A stretch of DNA of 64,000 nucleotides, taken from the NCBI RefSeq assembly GCF_947494875.1, contig NZ_CANLWM010000006.1:62001-126000 (forward strand), in the 5' to 3' direction. The notes below the pieces were generated by a model that saw nothing but the letters and a program-made list of their open reading frames with translations, did not search any database and had not been told where the DNA came from. This document shows positions 46,829 to 62,030 of this stretch, in pieces. This DNA is from an uncultured Williamsia sp. (GTDB taxonomy: Bacteria > Actinomycetota > Actinomycetes > Mycobacteriales > Mycobacteriaceae). The position numbers and the translations under genes are program-made. The first letter of the stretch is position 1. Each line of letters begins with the position of its first letter.

Positions 46829-48466
46829 ATGACCGGACACGATCACCATCAGGACAGGCGCGTCGTCGCCTCGCGCCTGATGGGTTTCGCGACGGTGGGC
46901 ATCATCCTCGCCAACGTGGCCGTCGGTCTCGAGACCGCGCTCCTCGTCGCTCTCACGACCTCCGGTGGCCACCTCACACTCGGCGCCGGCGGCCAAAGCG
47001 TGTCCGGCGTCTTCTGGGGTCTGCTCGTCGGTGCGACCATCGACTTCGTCGCCGCCATCGCGGTGCTCCGTCCCCACATCCAGTGGTATCTCTCCGGTGC
47101 GGCCGCGGACAAGCGACGCCGACTCTCCCTGCAGCGCATGCCGTTGACCGGTGTCGTCGCCACGGGCGTCGGGTGGGTCGCTGGGGTCGTGGCCTACGCG
47201 GCCGTCGCGGGGCGGGACCTCGGCGGGATCGACCTCCTGATCATCGCGACGGCCTTCGCGTTCGGTGGGGCGTCGTGCGCTGCGGCTACGTACATGATCC
47301 TCGAGCGCGTCGGCCGTCCGTTGGTGGCCGCCGCGATGCGGGACTCCCCGCCGCCGGAGCCGATCCTCGGTGTCCGCGAGCGGATGATCGTGCTGTGGAT
47401 CGCCGTCAGCGGTGTCCCGCTGGGTGGCATCGTCCTGGTCAACGTCGGGCGTGCCATCGGCTGGGTACCGCCGAGCGACACCGTGCTCGACATCCCCACC
47501 GTCGTCCTGGCGATCATCTGTCTCGCCAGCGGCGTCAGGGCGATCGCGCTGGTCACCCGGTCCATCACCGACCCGCTGCGCGACATCCGCGGCGCGGTCG
47601 AACGCGTCGCCGACGGCGACTACTCCACGCGCGTCGACGTGTACGACTCGTCGGAGCTGGGCGTACTGCAGGACGGTTTCAACACCATGGTCGACGGCCT
47701 CGCCGAGCGGGACCGGCTACGCGACCTGTTCGCGCGGCACGTCGGCACCGAGGTCGCCGCCCGAGCGCTGCGCACCGACATCGGGATGCACGGATCGCAG
47801 GCCGATGTCGGCGTGCTGTTCGTCGACATCGAGGGGTCGACGCGGTTCGCCGAGTCGACCGATCCCGAGACCGTCGCGGCCAGCCTCAACCGGTTCTTCA
47901 CCATCGTCGCCGACGTCGTCGCCCGCCACGACGGCTTCATCAACAAGTTCGAGGGCGACGCGGCGTTGGCCGTGTTCGGCGCCCCGAACGCCGTGCCCGA
48001 TCCCGCCGCGGCCGCCCTGGCCGCGGCACGGGAGCTCGGCGCCGAACTCGAGGAGATCCATCCGCTGCGCGTCGGGATCGGCGTGTCCAGCGGTCGGGTG
48101 TTCGCCGGCAACATCGGCGCCGAGTCCCGCTACGAGTACACCGTCATCGGCGACCCGGTGAACGAGTGCGCGCGTCTGGCCGACGTCGCGAAGCAGAGCC
48201 GGTCCAACGTGCTCGCCAGCGGTGCCGCCGTGAGCAGCCTCGTCGCGGACGCCGTCGACGACGACGGCGAGCCGACCGTGATCGCCGAGCACGACGAGTA
48301 CTTCGAGTGGACCGCCATCGGTCAGGTGTCGCTGCGCGGACGCGCTGCGCCGACCGACGTCCACGCGCCGGTCGAGCTCGTCGGCGACTCGGACGTGAGC
48401 TTCACCGACCTCGTCGACGGGTTCCTCCGTCGACCGCTGTCGATGCTGTGGAGCAAGCGCGCCTGA
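46829..48466 (+). CDS. Membrane-bound class III adenylate cyclase (6TM-HAMP-cyclase)
   Basis: The start is ATG 46829 (MTGHDHHQDR). The 545-residue protein has six membrane segments (residues about 15-255), a HAMP domain (about 255-310; DPLRDIRGAVERVADGDYSTRV) and a class III catalytic domain (about 320-490). Metal-binding aspartates are in FVDIEGSTRF and FEGDAALAVFG; the adenine-selecting lysine is in NKFEGD and the aspartate in IGDPVNE; the transition-state N and R are in NECARL. This is the architecture of M. tuberculosis Rv1318c-Rv1320c and Rv3645. It makes cAMP, which would load CRP; a CRP-type site occurs at 62307. Confidence 0.95.
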   Translation: MTGHDHHQDRRVVASRLMGFATVGIILANVAVGLETALLVALTTSGGHLTLGAGGQSVSGVFWGLLVGATIDFVAAIAVLRPHIQWYLSGAAADKRRRLSLQRMPLTGVVATGVGWVAGVVAYAAVAGRDLGGIDLLIIATAFAFGGASCAAATYMILERVGRPLVAAAMRDSPPPEPILGVRERMIVLWIAVSGVPLGGIVLVNVGRAIGWVPPSDTVLDIPTVVLAIICLASGVRAIALVTRSITDPLRDIRGAVERVADGDYSTRVDVYDSSELGVLQDGFNTMVDGLAERDRLRDLFARHVGTEVAARALRTDIGMHGSQADVGVLFVDIEGSTRFAESTDPETVAASLNRFFTIVADVVARHDGFINKFEGDAALAVFGAPNAVPDPAAAALAAARELGAELEEIHPLRVGIGVSSGRVFAGNIGAESRYEYTVIGDPVNECARLADVAKQSRSNVLASGAAVSSLVADAVDDDGEPTVIAEHDEYFEWTAIGQVSLRGRAAPTDVHAPVELVGDSDVSFTDLVDGFLRRPLSMLWSKRA

Positions 48467-48480
48467 CCCGGCCCCGCGCC

Positions 48481-48734
48481 ACCTGTTTGGCAGCCGGGAG
48501 CCGTCTGTTGGGCAGCCGGGACCAGTCGTTGGGCGCCCGGAACCGTTTGTTGGGCGCCCGGAACCGTTTGTTGGGCGCCCGGGACCAATTGTTGGGCAGC
48601 CGGAGCATCTTTCAGCGCGAGCGGGTGCTCCAAGTGCCCAACGAACGGCTCCGAGTGCCCAACGAACGGCCCCAACTGCCCAATGAACGGCTCCGAGTGC
48701 CAACGAACGGCTGCAGGTGCCCACCACGAGGTGG
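48481..48734. repeat. Head-to-head array of 21-bp repeats (six forward, about five inverted)
   Basis: Six contiguous 21-bp units run from 48481 to 48606 (core TGTTGGGC followed by GCCCGGAAC or AGCCGGGAC). After a 29-bp centre, about five inverted units run from 48636 to 48734; in that orientation the unit reads GCCCA-n4-ACG-n-CTCCGA-n-T. The last inverted unit is degenerate. The array fills the space between two convergent genes and would fold as a very long imperfect hairpin. A second array of the same family is at 61005. Confidence 0.85.
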
Positions 48735-48742
48735 AGACGACG

Positions 48743-48773
48743 CGACCCCCGCCTGCCGGGCAGACGGGGGTCG
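48743..48773. terminator. Strong hairpin terminator between convergent genes
   Basis: CGACCCCCG and CGGGGGTCG are exact complements. Between them CTGCC and GGCAG pair again, leaving a tiny loop. It lies 12 bases past the stop of the LLM oxidoreductase gene (minus strand), next to the 21-bp repeat array. Confidence 0.85.
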
Positions 48774-48784
48774 GGCGAGAGAAC

Positions 48785-49804
48785 TCAGCGCCAGCCGAGT
48801 TCCGGCGCCACGTGGGTCAGGATCGACTCGATGACGTGGGCGTTGTACTCGACGCCGAGTTGGTTGGGAACGGTCAGCAGCAGCGTGTCGGCCTCGGCGA
48901 TCGCGGAGTCCTCGGCCAACTGCTCGACGAGCTTGTCCGGCTCGTCGGCATAGGACCGGCCGAACCGGGCGATGCCGCCGTCGATGTGGCCGACCTGATC
49001 CGACTCCTCGCCCCCGTGACCGAAGTACGCGCGGTCACGGTCGTCGGTGATCGCGAAGATGCTGCGGCTCACCGACACCCGCGGCGTGAACGCGTGTCCG
49101 GCGTTCTGCCACTCCTTGCGGAACACGCGGATCTGTTCGGCCTGCAGCTCGTGGAACGGGACACCCGTGTCCTCGGTGAGCAGTGTCGAGCTCATCAGGT
49201 TCATGCCCTGCTGCGCAGTCCATTCCGCGGTCGCCCGTGTCCCGGCGCCCCACCAGATCCGCTCCCGCAGACCCGCGGAGTGCGGCTCGAGCCGGAGCAG
49301 TCCCGGCGGGTTGGGAAACATCGGCCGCGGGTTGGGGCGGGCGAAGCCCTCGCCCTCGAGGCCCTGCAGGAACACCGCGGTGTGGCGCCGGGCCATGTCG
49401 GCGTCGGTCTCGCCCTCCGCGGGCGCATAGCCGAAGTACTTGTAGCCCTCGATCACCTGCTCCGGCGATCCCCGGCTGATGCCGAGCTGCAGCCTGCCGC
49501 CGGAGATGAGGTCGGCCGCACCGGCGTCCTCCACCATGTACAGCGGGTTCTCGTAGCGCATGTCGATGACGCCGGTGCCGATCTCGATGCGCGACGTGCG
49601 TGCCCCGACCGCGGACAGCAGCGGGAACGGCGACGCGAGCTGGCGCGCGAAGTGGTGCACACGGAAGTAGGCGCCGTCCGCGCCGAGCTCCTCGGCGGCG
49701 ACGGCGAGGTCGATGGACTGGAGGAGCACATCGGCCGCGGACCGCGTCGCAGACTGCGGAGAGGGCGTCCAGTGCCCGAACGACAGGAAACCGATGTTCT
49801 TCAT
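48785..49804 (-). CDS. LLM class flavin-dependent oxidoreductase
   Basis: This 339-residue luciferase-like protein starts at ATG 49804 (MKNIGFLSFGHWTP). It has the F420/FMN-binding TIM-barrel features AAEELGADGAYFRVHHF, RIEIGTGVIDMRYENPLYMVEDAGAADLISGGRLQLGISRGSPEQ. The -10-like TTATAG lies only about six bases before the ATG, so the mRNA is probably leaderless. The promoter carries the palindrome at 49816 that is shared with yceI. Substrate unknown. Confidence 0.92.
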   Translation of the reverse strand: MKNIGFLSFGHWTPSPQSATRSAADVLLQSIDLAVAAEELGADGAYFRVHHFARQLASPFPLLSAVGARTSRIEIGTGVIDMRYENPLYMVEDAGAADLISGGRLQLGISRGSPEQVIEGYKYFGYAPAEGETDADMARRHTAVFLQGLEGEGFARPNPRPMFPNPPGLLRLEPHSAGLRERIWWGAGTRATAEWTAQQGMNLMSSTLLTEDTGVPFHELQAEQIRVFRKEWQNAGHAFTPRVSVSRSIFAITDDRDRAYFGHGGEESDQVGHIDGGIARFGRSYADEPDKLVEQLAEDSAIAEADTLLLTVPNQLGVEYNAHVIESILTHVAPELGWR

Positions 49805-61004: not shown

Positions 61005-61119
61005 CGTCGAGTGGGCGGTCGGAGACGTCGAGTGTGCGGTAGGAGCAGTCGAGTGGGCGTCTGCTGCCCACTGGACGCGTCCGAGCGCCCACTCGACGCC
61101 TCCGACTGCCCACTCGACG
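61005..61119. repeat. Second head-to-head array of the 21-bp repeat family (three forward, three inverted)
   Basis: Forward units start at 61005, 61026 and 61047 (core CGTCGAGTGGGC). Inverted units start at 61066, 61087 and 61108 (GCCCACTCGACG-n-CTCCGACT pattern; the last one is partial). Unit length is exactly 21 bp, and the inverted unit agrees with the array at 48481 in the pattern GCCCA-n4-ACG-n-CTCCGA-n-T. As there, it lies between the ends of two convergent genes, moaE and rpfA. Confidence 0.85.
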
Positions 61120-61252: not shown

Positions 61253-61879
61253 TCACTGGAAGGGGATCAGTCCCTTGTTCTGGTTGAACAGGGCGATCTG
61301 GTCGGCGGAGAGGGTGATGCCGCTGCGCTTGGCCTGCTCCCACAGTCCGACGATCGCCGGGTCGATCTTGTTCTGCTTCTGGGCGTTCTCGACGATCTCG
61401 TCGACCTGCTTCTTCACGTCGTCGGTCGACTTGGCGACCTGATCCTTCACGTCCTGGACCGAGGGCAGCTTCGGCGCCTTCGGCAGGTCGGTCGGGGCGG
61501 AACGCGGGGTCGGCGCGCCGAGGCCGGTGCCGCACACGGGCCAGGCACCCTTGCCCTGGCCGGCGAGCACGCGCTCGGCGACGGTGATCTGCTGCTCCTT
61601 GGTGGCCTGATTGGCGGTCGGCGCGAACTCGGTGCCGCCGTGGCCGGCCCAGGTGCTCGGGCTGAACTGCAGGCCGCCCTGGTAACCGTTGCCGGTGTTG
61701 ATGGCCCAGTTGCCGCCCGACTCGCACTGGGCGACCTGGTTCCACTGGTCGTCGGTGGCCGCGGAGGCGGCGCCGACACCGAAGAAGGCGCTCGCGCCGC
61801 CGCCGATGACGGCGGAGGTGAGAACGACCTTGGCGGCGGTACGGGTGGCGGAGGACTGCTTGCGATGACGTCCGGACAT
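61253..61879 (-). CDS. rpfA: Resuscitation-promoting factor, RpfA-like
   Basis: The 208-residue precursor starts at ATG 61879. A signal peptide ends at ASA-AT (residue 40). Residues 42-118 form the Rpf lytic transglycosylase-like domain: catalytic E53 in QCESGGNW, the C52-C116 disulphide pair, [14 protein letters not shown] and GAWPVCG. The C-terminal 80 residues are a charged, helical tail ending NQNKGLIPF. It cleaves peptidoglycan outside the cell and wakes dormant cells. Location between moaE and moaD matches M. tuberculosis rpfA. A riboswitch-like leader and a CRP-type site lie upstream. Confidence 0.96.
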
Positions 61880-61899
61880 AGGTGCTGTTTTTCCTCTCC

Positions 61900-62030
61900 C
61901 CACGCGCCTGCGAGGTGAGCTGTCGGGTTCGGGCTGAGAGGTTGCCCGGCTCCGCGTCGCGGAGCTTCACCCCAAGGGATCCGGATCTCGCGATCCGGCC
62001 CGATCCTCGTCGACCCCGTTCACCGTCTGG
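61900..62030 (-). ncRNA. c-di-AMP riboswitch (ydaO/yuaA type) in the rpfA leader
   Basis: On the minus strand the leader contains GGGGTGAAGC, a GC hairpin (CTCCGCG/CGCGGAG), GCCGGGCAACCTCTCAGCCC, GAACCCGACAGCTCACC and GCAGGCG. These are the conserved blocks of the ydaO c-di-AMP riboswitch as found before rpf genes in actinobacteria. The element ends about 20-25 bases before the start codon. Boundaries are approximate, especially on the 5' side. Confidence 0.85.

Follow-up and report, generated by a model that had tools for sequence, protein, structure and literature searches.

The head-to-head repeat array at positions 48483-48729 of the window, by which the whole analysed stretch of 64,000 nucleotides is meant, belongs to type A of a dispersed family of directional, non-palindromic 21-bp units in Williamsia. 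The arrays of this family are probably binding sites of cognate nuclease-like proteins that maintain them, a reading drawn from sequence comparisons in which the logic resembles that of RAYT proteins and REP sequences while the enzyme is unrelated and the units are non-palindromic.

The forward arm of the window array (48483-48607, plus strand, sense GTTCGTTGGGCNNNNGGAACC) consists of five strong 21-bp units starting at 48503, 48524, 48545, 48566 and 48587, together with one degenerate unit ahead of them, from ~48483, in which one base is missing. A spacer of 18 bp (48608-48625, phase class 18 mod 21) separates it from the inverted arm (48626-48729, minus strand), which has three strong units (48626-48688, with starts at 48626, 48647 and 48668) and then two degenerate units to ~48729, the first of them one base short. 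The six forward and about five inverted exact 21-bp units of the initial annotation are reached when the degenerate units are included, and the strong units of both arms are spaced by exactly 21 bp; however, only five and three units are strong, and one degenerate unit per arm is a base short. TRF reports a period of 21 in both arms (scores 112 and 138), and neighbouring units abut without spacers, as had been described. The orthologous array of W. serinedens likewise has a spacer of 18 bp, with a different sequence.

The array fills the gap between two convergent genes, whose domains and orientation agree with the adenylate cyclase and LLM oxidoreductase originally read there. The upstream gene (46880-48466, plus strand) encodes a guanylate/adenylate cyclase catalytic domain with a HAMP domain, and its stop at 48466 precedes the forward arm, with the strong units beginning from 37 bp on. 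The gene for a luciferase-like (LLM) monooxygenase (48785-49804, minus strand) faces the inverted arm with its 3' end at 48785. A GC-rich hairpin at 48743-48773, with 15-nt arms that are 93% complementary, recurs in the orthologous locus of W. serinedens; at the orthologous locus of W. deligens, ~18 bp between two stop codons leave no room for a hairpin of this type, and no array is present. No U-tract terminator was predicted in 48300-48900, in line with the view that the array itself is not a standard terminator, but the terminator claimed at 48743 is the hairpin, which is without a T tract. A second facing array of 21-bp units, this one of type B (GTCGAGTGGGCGGTNGGAGAC), occupies 61005-61119 of the window, where moaE and a transglycosylase-like gene converge. 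Immediately upstream of the transglycosylase-like gene, on the minus strand, is a c-di-AMP riboswitch (the two together cover 61253-61879 and 61889-62022), and this riboswitch and four tRNAs are the only Rfam matches in the window at gathering scores.

An expanding repeat family had been among the initial suggestions, and the window array is indeed one among dozens of dispersed copies in its own genome, W. serinedens and W. deligens. BLAST of the array against its own genome gave at least 44 matches, the best 40 of 53 candidates being scored, and, across stretches of this genome totalling 488 kb, a 25-bit unit profile detected 140 units, against none in a single shuffle of their letters. Array counts from the first BLAST over relatives are lower bounds, as the best 18 candidates per genome at most were scored. 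The two-unit (tandem pair) pattern of types A and B has 58, 52 and 25 matches in G000, G002 and G006 and none in five other Williamsia genomes, and the reversed control has none. Among 401 genomes of the family this pattern is numerous in only three; 12 further genomes have one match each, of which 11 are nearly identical sequence within one genus and probably coding, and the reversed control has two matches. A scan of GTDB r220 species, in which the studied genome itself is possibly absent, returned 14 stretches, all from W. serinedens or W. deligens. The expectation of the repeat elsewhere in the Mycobacteriales thereby held in part: type A occurs in number in the studied Williamsia genome, W. 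serinedens and W. deligens only, whereas sister unit types are more widespread.

The unit consensus sequences of type A (GGTTCCGGCCGCCCAACGAAC) and type B (GTCTCCAACCGCCCACTCGAC), judged by eye, contain no REP-like palindrome with a tetranucleotide head. The 92 array clusters delimited in three genomes comprise 38 facing, 48 one-sided, 4 reversed and 2 complex clusters. The four reversed (tail-to-tail) arrays have 11-13 bp between their arms (L146, L068, L081:819-957 and L144:4921-5057, those of L081 and L144 being orthologous). A lag scan of intergenic DNA, sampled from stretches selected for holding arrays, was dominated by lag 21: within A/B arrays this lag had 110 windows and each of the other lags between 14 and 35 had one or none, and elsewhere it had six windows, with no other lag exceeding three. 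The core GYCGASYGKGC at a 21-bp period is present in all eight Williamsia genomes (once in G004), and outside Williamsia it is found in number in G017, G080 and G023, from two other genera (48, 42 and 52 matches); 12 more of the 121 genomes searched have one or two matches, and the reversed control has four in total. At three nuclease loci (L284, L296 and L297) the units are 22 bp rather than 21 bp long.

Comparisons of orthologous places showed that 40 clusters of G000 have array counterparts in 24 cases in W. serinedens and in 20 cases in W. deligens, with unit counts that differ between orthologous arrays. The unit types at these places are 20 A/A, 1 B/B, 1 B/A and 2 mixed against W. serinedens, and 9 A/A, 5 B/B, 3 A/B and 3 mixed against W. 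deligens. Examples of a change of type are L087 (B) versus L127 (A), and L072 at 14172 (A) versus L149 at 14775 (B).

The position and polarity of the arms relative to genes were analysed with genes called by a codon-score script of our own rather than a standard annotator, in stretches picked for holding arrays, and the counts of flanking genes carry errors. Of 191 arms, 184 lie between called genes, four inside a gene and three at the edge of a stretch, which rules out a coding repeat; the family is one of intergenic DNA and not of conserved genes, as the early dismissal of a coding function had it. The 128 array-bearing intergenic regions of six genomes divide into 65 convergent, 54 codirectional and 9 divergent ones, bearing out the placement of arrays at convergent gene ends. 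The arm nearest the gene 3' end has sense polarity in 49 of the 54 codirectional regions, with five breaking the rule, and convergent regions with at least two arms start in the facing order in 34 of 35 cases, two complex ones included. Over all 3' ends, single arms between two convergent genes included, the polarity is sense in 146 of 184. Arrays of type F, which were not used in finding the polarity rule, follow it in 4/4 codirectional and 8/8 two-armed convergent regions. For 155 arms with an upstream gene on the same strand, the arm starts at a median of 23 bp past the stop codon. The head-to-head order exists mostly because the orientation of an arm is set by the gene ending beside it, and one-sided clusters are common. 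A strict reading of one arm per gene is only partly right, as facing pairs occur in 13 of the 54 codirectional regions and the 9 divergent regions are also among the 128. The polarity at stop codons suggests that the arrays may end or insulate transcription.

A nuclease-like gene is located between two facing type A arrays at G000:C2:52753-53667, outside the window, and another between facing type B arrays at G000:C4:302867-303760. The two genes are paralogues, 75% identical over 261 residues, and each predicted protein of ~300 residues combines an AbiEi-like N-terminus with a putative PD-(D/E)XK nuclease domain of the Vsr/DUF559 type at the C-terminus. The PADLOC AbiEi profile matches the N-terminus of three such proteins at 5e-16, 3e-13 and 3e-8. 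The C-terminus matches the Vsr-like REase MTES_1575 and, in relatives, DUF559 too. The MTES_1575 scores of 26-43 bits lie under the cut-off of 38 for the A and B proteins and just over it for those of G080 and G017, and the DUF559 scores reach at most 31 against a cut-off of 21. In the accessible portion of the source (PMC3710099), the MTES_1575 domain is named as a Vsr-family REase. Residues D234, D247-G248 and H252 are invariant across 18 aligned rows. A single weak match was obtained in the PDB (3hrl, E 0.94), and single-sequence structure prediction was uninformative (pLDDT 33).

A search of 15 hand-picked genomes identified 22 proteins that score above 250 bits, spread over 11 of them, with no score falling between 103 and 250 bits. 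Within this hand-picked set, the subfamily is found in 11/11 genomes with such arrays and in 0/4 others. All 22 members adjoin 21/22-bp arrays, 17 of them on both sides by the lag test, as does one of the 26 weaker homologues (103 bits or less). This sole array-flanked weak homologue (L278, from G010 of another genus) lies between facing 21-bp repeats of another unit (GCGGTTGGCGGACATGCCCCC), a case by which the association of nuclease and array may be wider than the subfamily; a weak periodic stretch ~600 bp from the weak homologue of L294 was not counted as an array. Among 819 called genes in array-rich stretches, seven are located between facing arms. The nuclease accounts for three of these, an amine oxidase at a single orthologous locus for another three, and a CN-hydrolase for the last; the gene of the type B nuclease lies under the gene-score cut and hence outside this count. 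No homologue of the nuclease was found in a viral-contig scan or in phage records, and plasmids gave six distant ones.

The type of the unit follows the clade of the nuclease (Mantel r 0.53, P 5e-5, 23 rows including a distant one, with shared descent uncorrected). The mean unit distance is 0.24 between close nuclease homologues of different genomes versus 0.61 between paralogues of one genome. As a prediction test, eight Williamsia genomes were examined for two unit types. Type F was found only in G001, G004, G005 and G007, exactly the genomes with the matching nuclease, and has 9, 6, 8 and 22 matches in them that do not lie at the nuclease locus. Type K was found only in G001, G005 and G007, as was its matching nuclease; the record of type K is thin, with seven matches, three of which are at the nuclease itself, and none elsewhere in G005. 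W. serinedens has A and E nucleases and no match to a type B nuclease, and it has 2 matches to the B pattern versus 29 and 21 in two relatives with a B nuclease. Type F is shared by two nuclease clades whose sequences differ at 40% of residues, a divergence as large as that between the F and K nucleases of one genome, and the tree leaves the relationship of these two clades open. Type C (GTCGASTGGGCGGNTGCGGAC), with 20, 27 and 5 single-unit matches in G001, G005 and G007, forms arrays at gene ends like the other types (e.g. L252-L265). No type C unit was found beside the eight subfamily nucleases of these three genomes or beside 15 weaker homologues; type C is an orphan type within the homologues searched.

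Analysis of the gaps between facing arms showed helical phasing. The 49 near gaps cluster at 7.7 mod 10.5 (Rayleigh R 0.82), and with one gap per locus (40 loci, grouped by hand, with one second gap of L160 left out) the Rayleigh test at 10.5 bp gives R 0.85 and P about 3e-13. In these 40 loci, 26 gaps fall at 6-9 mod 21, 11 at 17-19 and 3 elsewhere, so that 37/40 are in phase. The phasing is also observed in G080/G017 (6/7 gaps) and in type F (8/9 gaps at 7-9 mod 10.5), and arms more than 400 bp apart show none (n=13, P 0.38). From one orthologue to another, the change in gap size comes to a multiple of 10.5, give or take 2 bp, in 10/15 comparisons, a fraction of 0.38 being expected by chance. 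In a subset chosen after inspection, differences of 10-31 bp are near such a multiple in 8/8 cases, whereas 5/6 larger ones are not. Common descent accounts for part of the 7/8 gap class but does not readily account for the one-turn steps. The helical phasing of the gaps points to a DNA-bound protein, and of the repeated protein binding or structured RNA first proposed for the array, protein binding is probable, and a long RNA hairpin as a product of selection is unsupported.

By analogy with AbiEi, each 21-bp unit would be the site of one protomer, bound through the AbiEi-like part of the protein. Neighbouring protomers would interact along one face of the helix, and facing arms would be kept in phase so that the protomers of both arms meet. 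The nuclease domain may nick or cut the arrays, and repair may then lengthen them, copy them or convert one unit type into another. The arrays would remain next to stop codons either because they are nearly harmless there or because the bound protein blocks transcription in a polar manner, ending or insulating it. An orphan type such as C might be what a lost nuclease left behind, or might provide sites for a more distant nuclease. It is possible, although we hold it as tentative, that the AbiEi-Vsr fusion nuclease, domesticated or selfish, represents an undescribed repeat-nuclease class that binds phased 21-bp units and spreads or rewrites its own unit type at dozens of gene 3' ends, in-place swaps included, with the bound arrays acting as polar punctuation. 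Several observations count against cognate binding and maintenance: the orphan type C, the two diverged clades of type F, the thin record of type K, the weak family matches of the nuclease and the exceptions to the polarity rule; ordinary genes such as those of the amine oxidase and the CN-hydrolase are also located between facing arms, and the W. deligens orthologue of the window locus has no array.

The closest known parallel is provided by the REP/BIME elements and RAYT proteins of Proteobacteria. As far as the available text of PMC3686654 describes them, REPs are extragenic, occur in many copies and are single palindromes with a conserved tetranucleotide, and the RAYT gene, which encodes a catalytic tyrosine and metal-binding histidines, is flanked by inverted copies of its own REP class; a repeat class goes with its nuclease, abundance mostly tracks the presence of the nuclease, and orphan classes occur. 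The Williamsia system is alike in its multicopy extragenic repeats, in a nuclease gene flanked by its own class, in a class that follows the clade and in its orphans, within what that text covers. It differs in an enzyme that resembles AbiEi plus Vsr/DUF559 and in units that are non-palindromic 21-bp tandem repeats in helical phase. Among the genes between facing arrays no Y1 HUH transposase was found; these genes match MTES_1575/DUF559 plus AbiEi or are ordinary enzymes.

AbiEi and Rv2827c bind 23-bp inverted repeats with a gap of 3 bp in one operator and 13 bp in the other, according to the accessible part of PMC7319586. These operators of AbiEi antitoxins (type IV toxin-antitoxin systems) are comparable in that the N-terminal half of the Williamsia protein matches AbiEi and that the gaps of 3 versus 13 bp, as given in that part of the source, are about one turn apart, as are the two gap classes here; unlike AbiEi, the Williamsia protein has a fused nuclease-like domain, and its sites are tandem arrays dispersed through the genome. 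Genes of homing endonucleases are embedded in their target, and the Williamsia nuclease gene is likewise embedded in what is probably its own target, but its targets would be multicopy arrays outside genes. Plasmid iterons are tandem repeats with a spacing of about two turns; they and CRISPR arrays resemble the Williamsia arrays as tandem repeats of similar length, whereas the Williamsia units abut without spacers and are dispersed at dozens of gene ends rather than at one origin. No description of DUF559/MTES_1575 proteins linked to such repeats was found in the open-access literature, which suggests that the partnership of this nuclease with scattered repeats is undescribed. If the partnership is real, the bond between a nuclease and its own dispersed repeats, as in REP/RAYT, would have evolved twice, the second time from an unrelated enzyme. 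The matched types of unit and nuclease would then offer natural variation from which to learn how a protein shifts to a new DNA site, and the function of the gene-end repeats would become directly testable, as an array type could be matched with the removal of one gene.

A different order of events would have the host's own gene-end elements come first: long-standing arrays that serve as polar transcription blocks, insulators or topology sites, into which a homing-type parasite, the nuclease, inserts by recognizing the units. This order is unlikely, though it would explain several of the observations. The 3'-end polarity extends across unit types and genera, arrays occupy orthologous loci (the 24/40 and 20/40 counterparts in W. 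serinedens and W. deligens), the orphan type C exists, and an HNH-type gene family is also found at arrays. However, the unit sequence tracks the nuclease clade and not the host, the paralogues of one genome having different units, and those of the eight Williamsia genomes that are without the matching nuclease yielded no F or K units. The A/B pattern, moreover, is numerous in just three of the 401 family genomes, indicating that no shared host function needs it.

Plain minisatellites, which would have expanded by slippage in tolerant intergenic sites with no dedicated protein, are a highly improbable and already disfavoured account of the arrays. Units are most alike within one arm (0.797, versus 0.728 when arms are compared across arrays that share genome and type), as in slippage, and unit numbers vary between orthologues, but slippage leaves unexplained the 21/22-bp period shared across unit types, the polarity, the helical phasing, the dispersal to dozens of loci and the link to the nuclease.

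The least probable account, already largely refuted, is a bidirectional RNA hairpin in which the two arms of the transcript pair and act as a terminator or as a protector of mRNA ends: the long imperfect hairpin foreseen in the initial annotation does have a strong predicted fold in the window array (z -7.3), with no U-tract terminator nearby, yet in 38 facing arrays the similarity of units predicted to pair (0.705) does not exceed that of unpaired units (0.703) or that between the arms of other arrays, so that the two arms evolve apart, about half of the clusters (48/92) are one-sided, and the 10.5-bp phasing of the gaps has no reason in a hairpin loop. An intrinsic terminator or selected hairpin was rejected on the same lack of excess complementarity and of a U tract, despite the fold.

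The HNH-type gene found at arrays encodes ~430 residues and is multicopy, with eight matches in the studied genome. In three genomes, 16 of the 20 copies checked have A or B units within ~150 bp upstream (L073, L076, L081, L089, L090, L194, L198, L126, L128, L191, L196, L203, L178, L185, L195 and L199); a broken, diverged copy in L204 is left out of the count. The sequence GTGTACACGAGGGG beside one-sided arrays, considered as a separate motif, reads as the coding start of this gene family. Another ~21-bp repeat (TCGGCACGACGTGACGCGACA-like), unlike the others, is located ~60-150 bp upstream of the HNH start in L177, L184 and L200, in the position that type A arrays take at other HNH copies. Several copies (e.g. 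L176 and L203) carry TTGTSCACA between the array and the HNH start, a sequence that we take to resemble a DnaA box.
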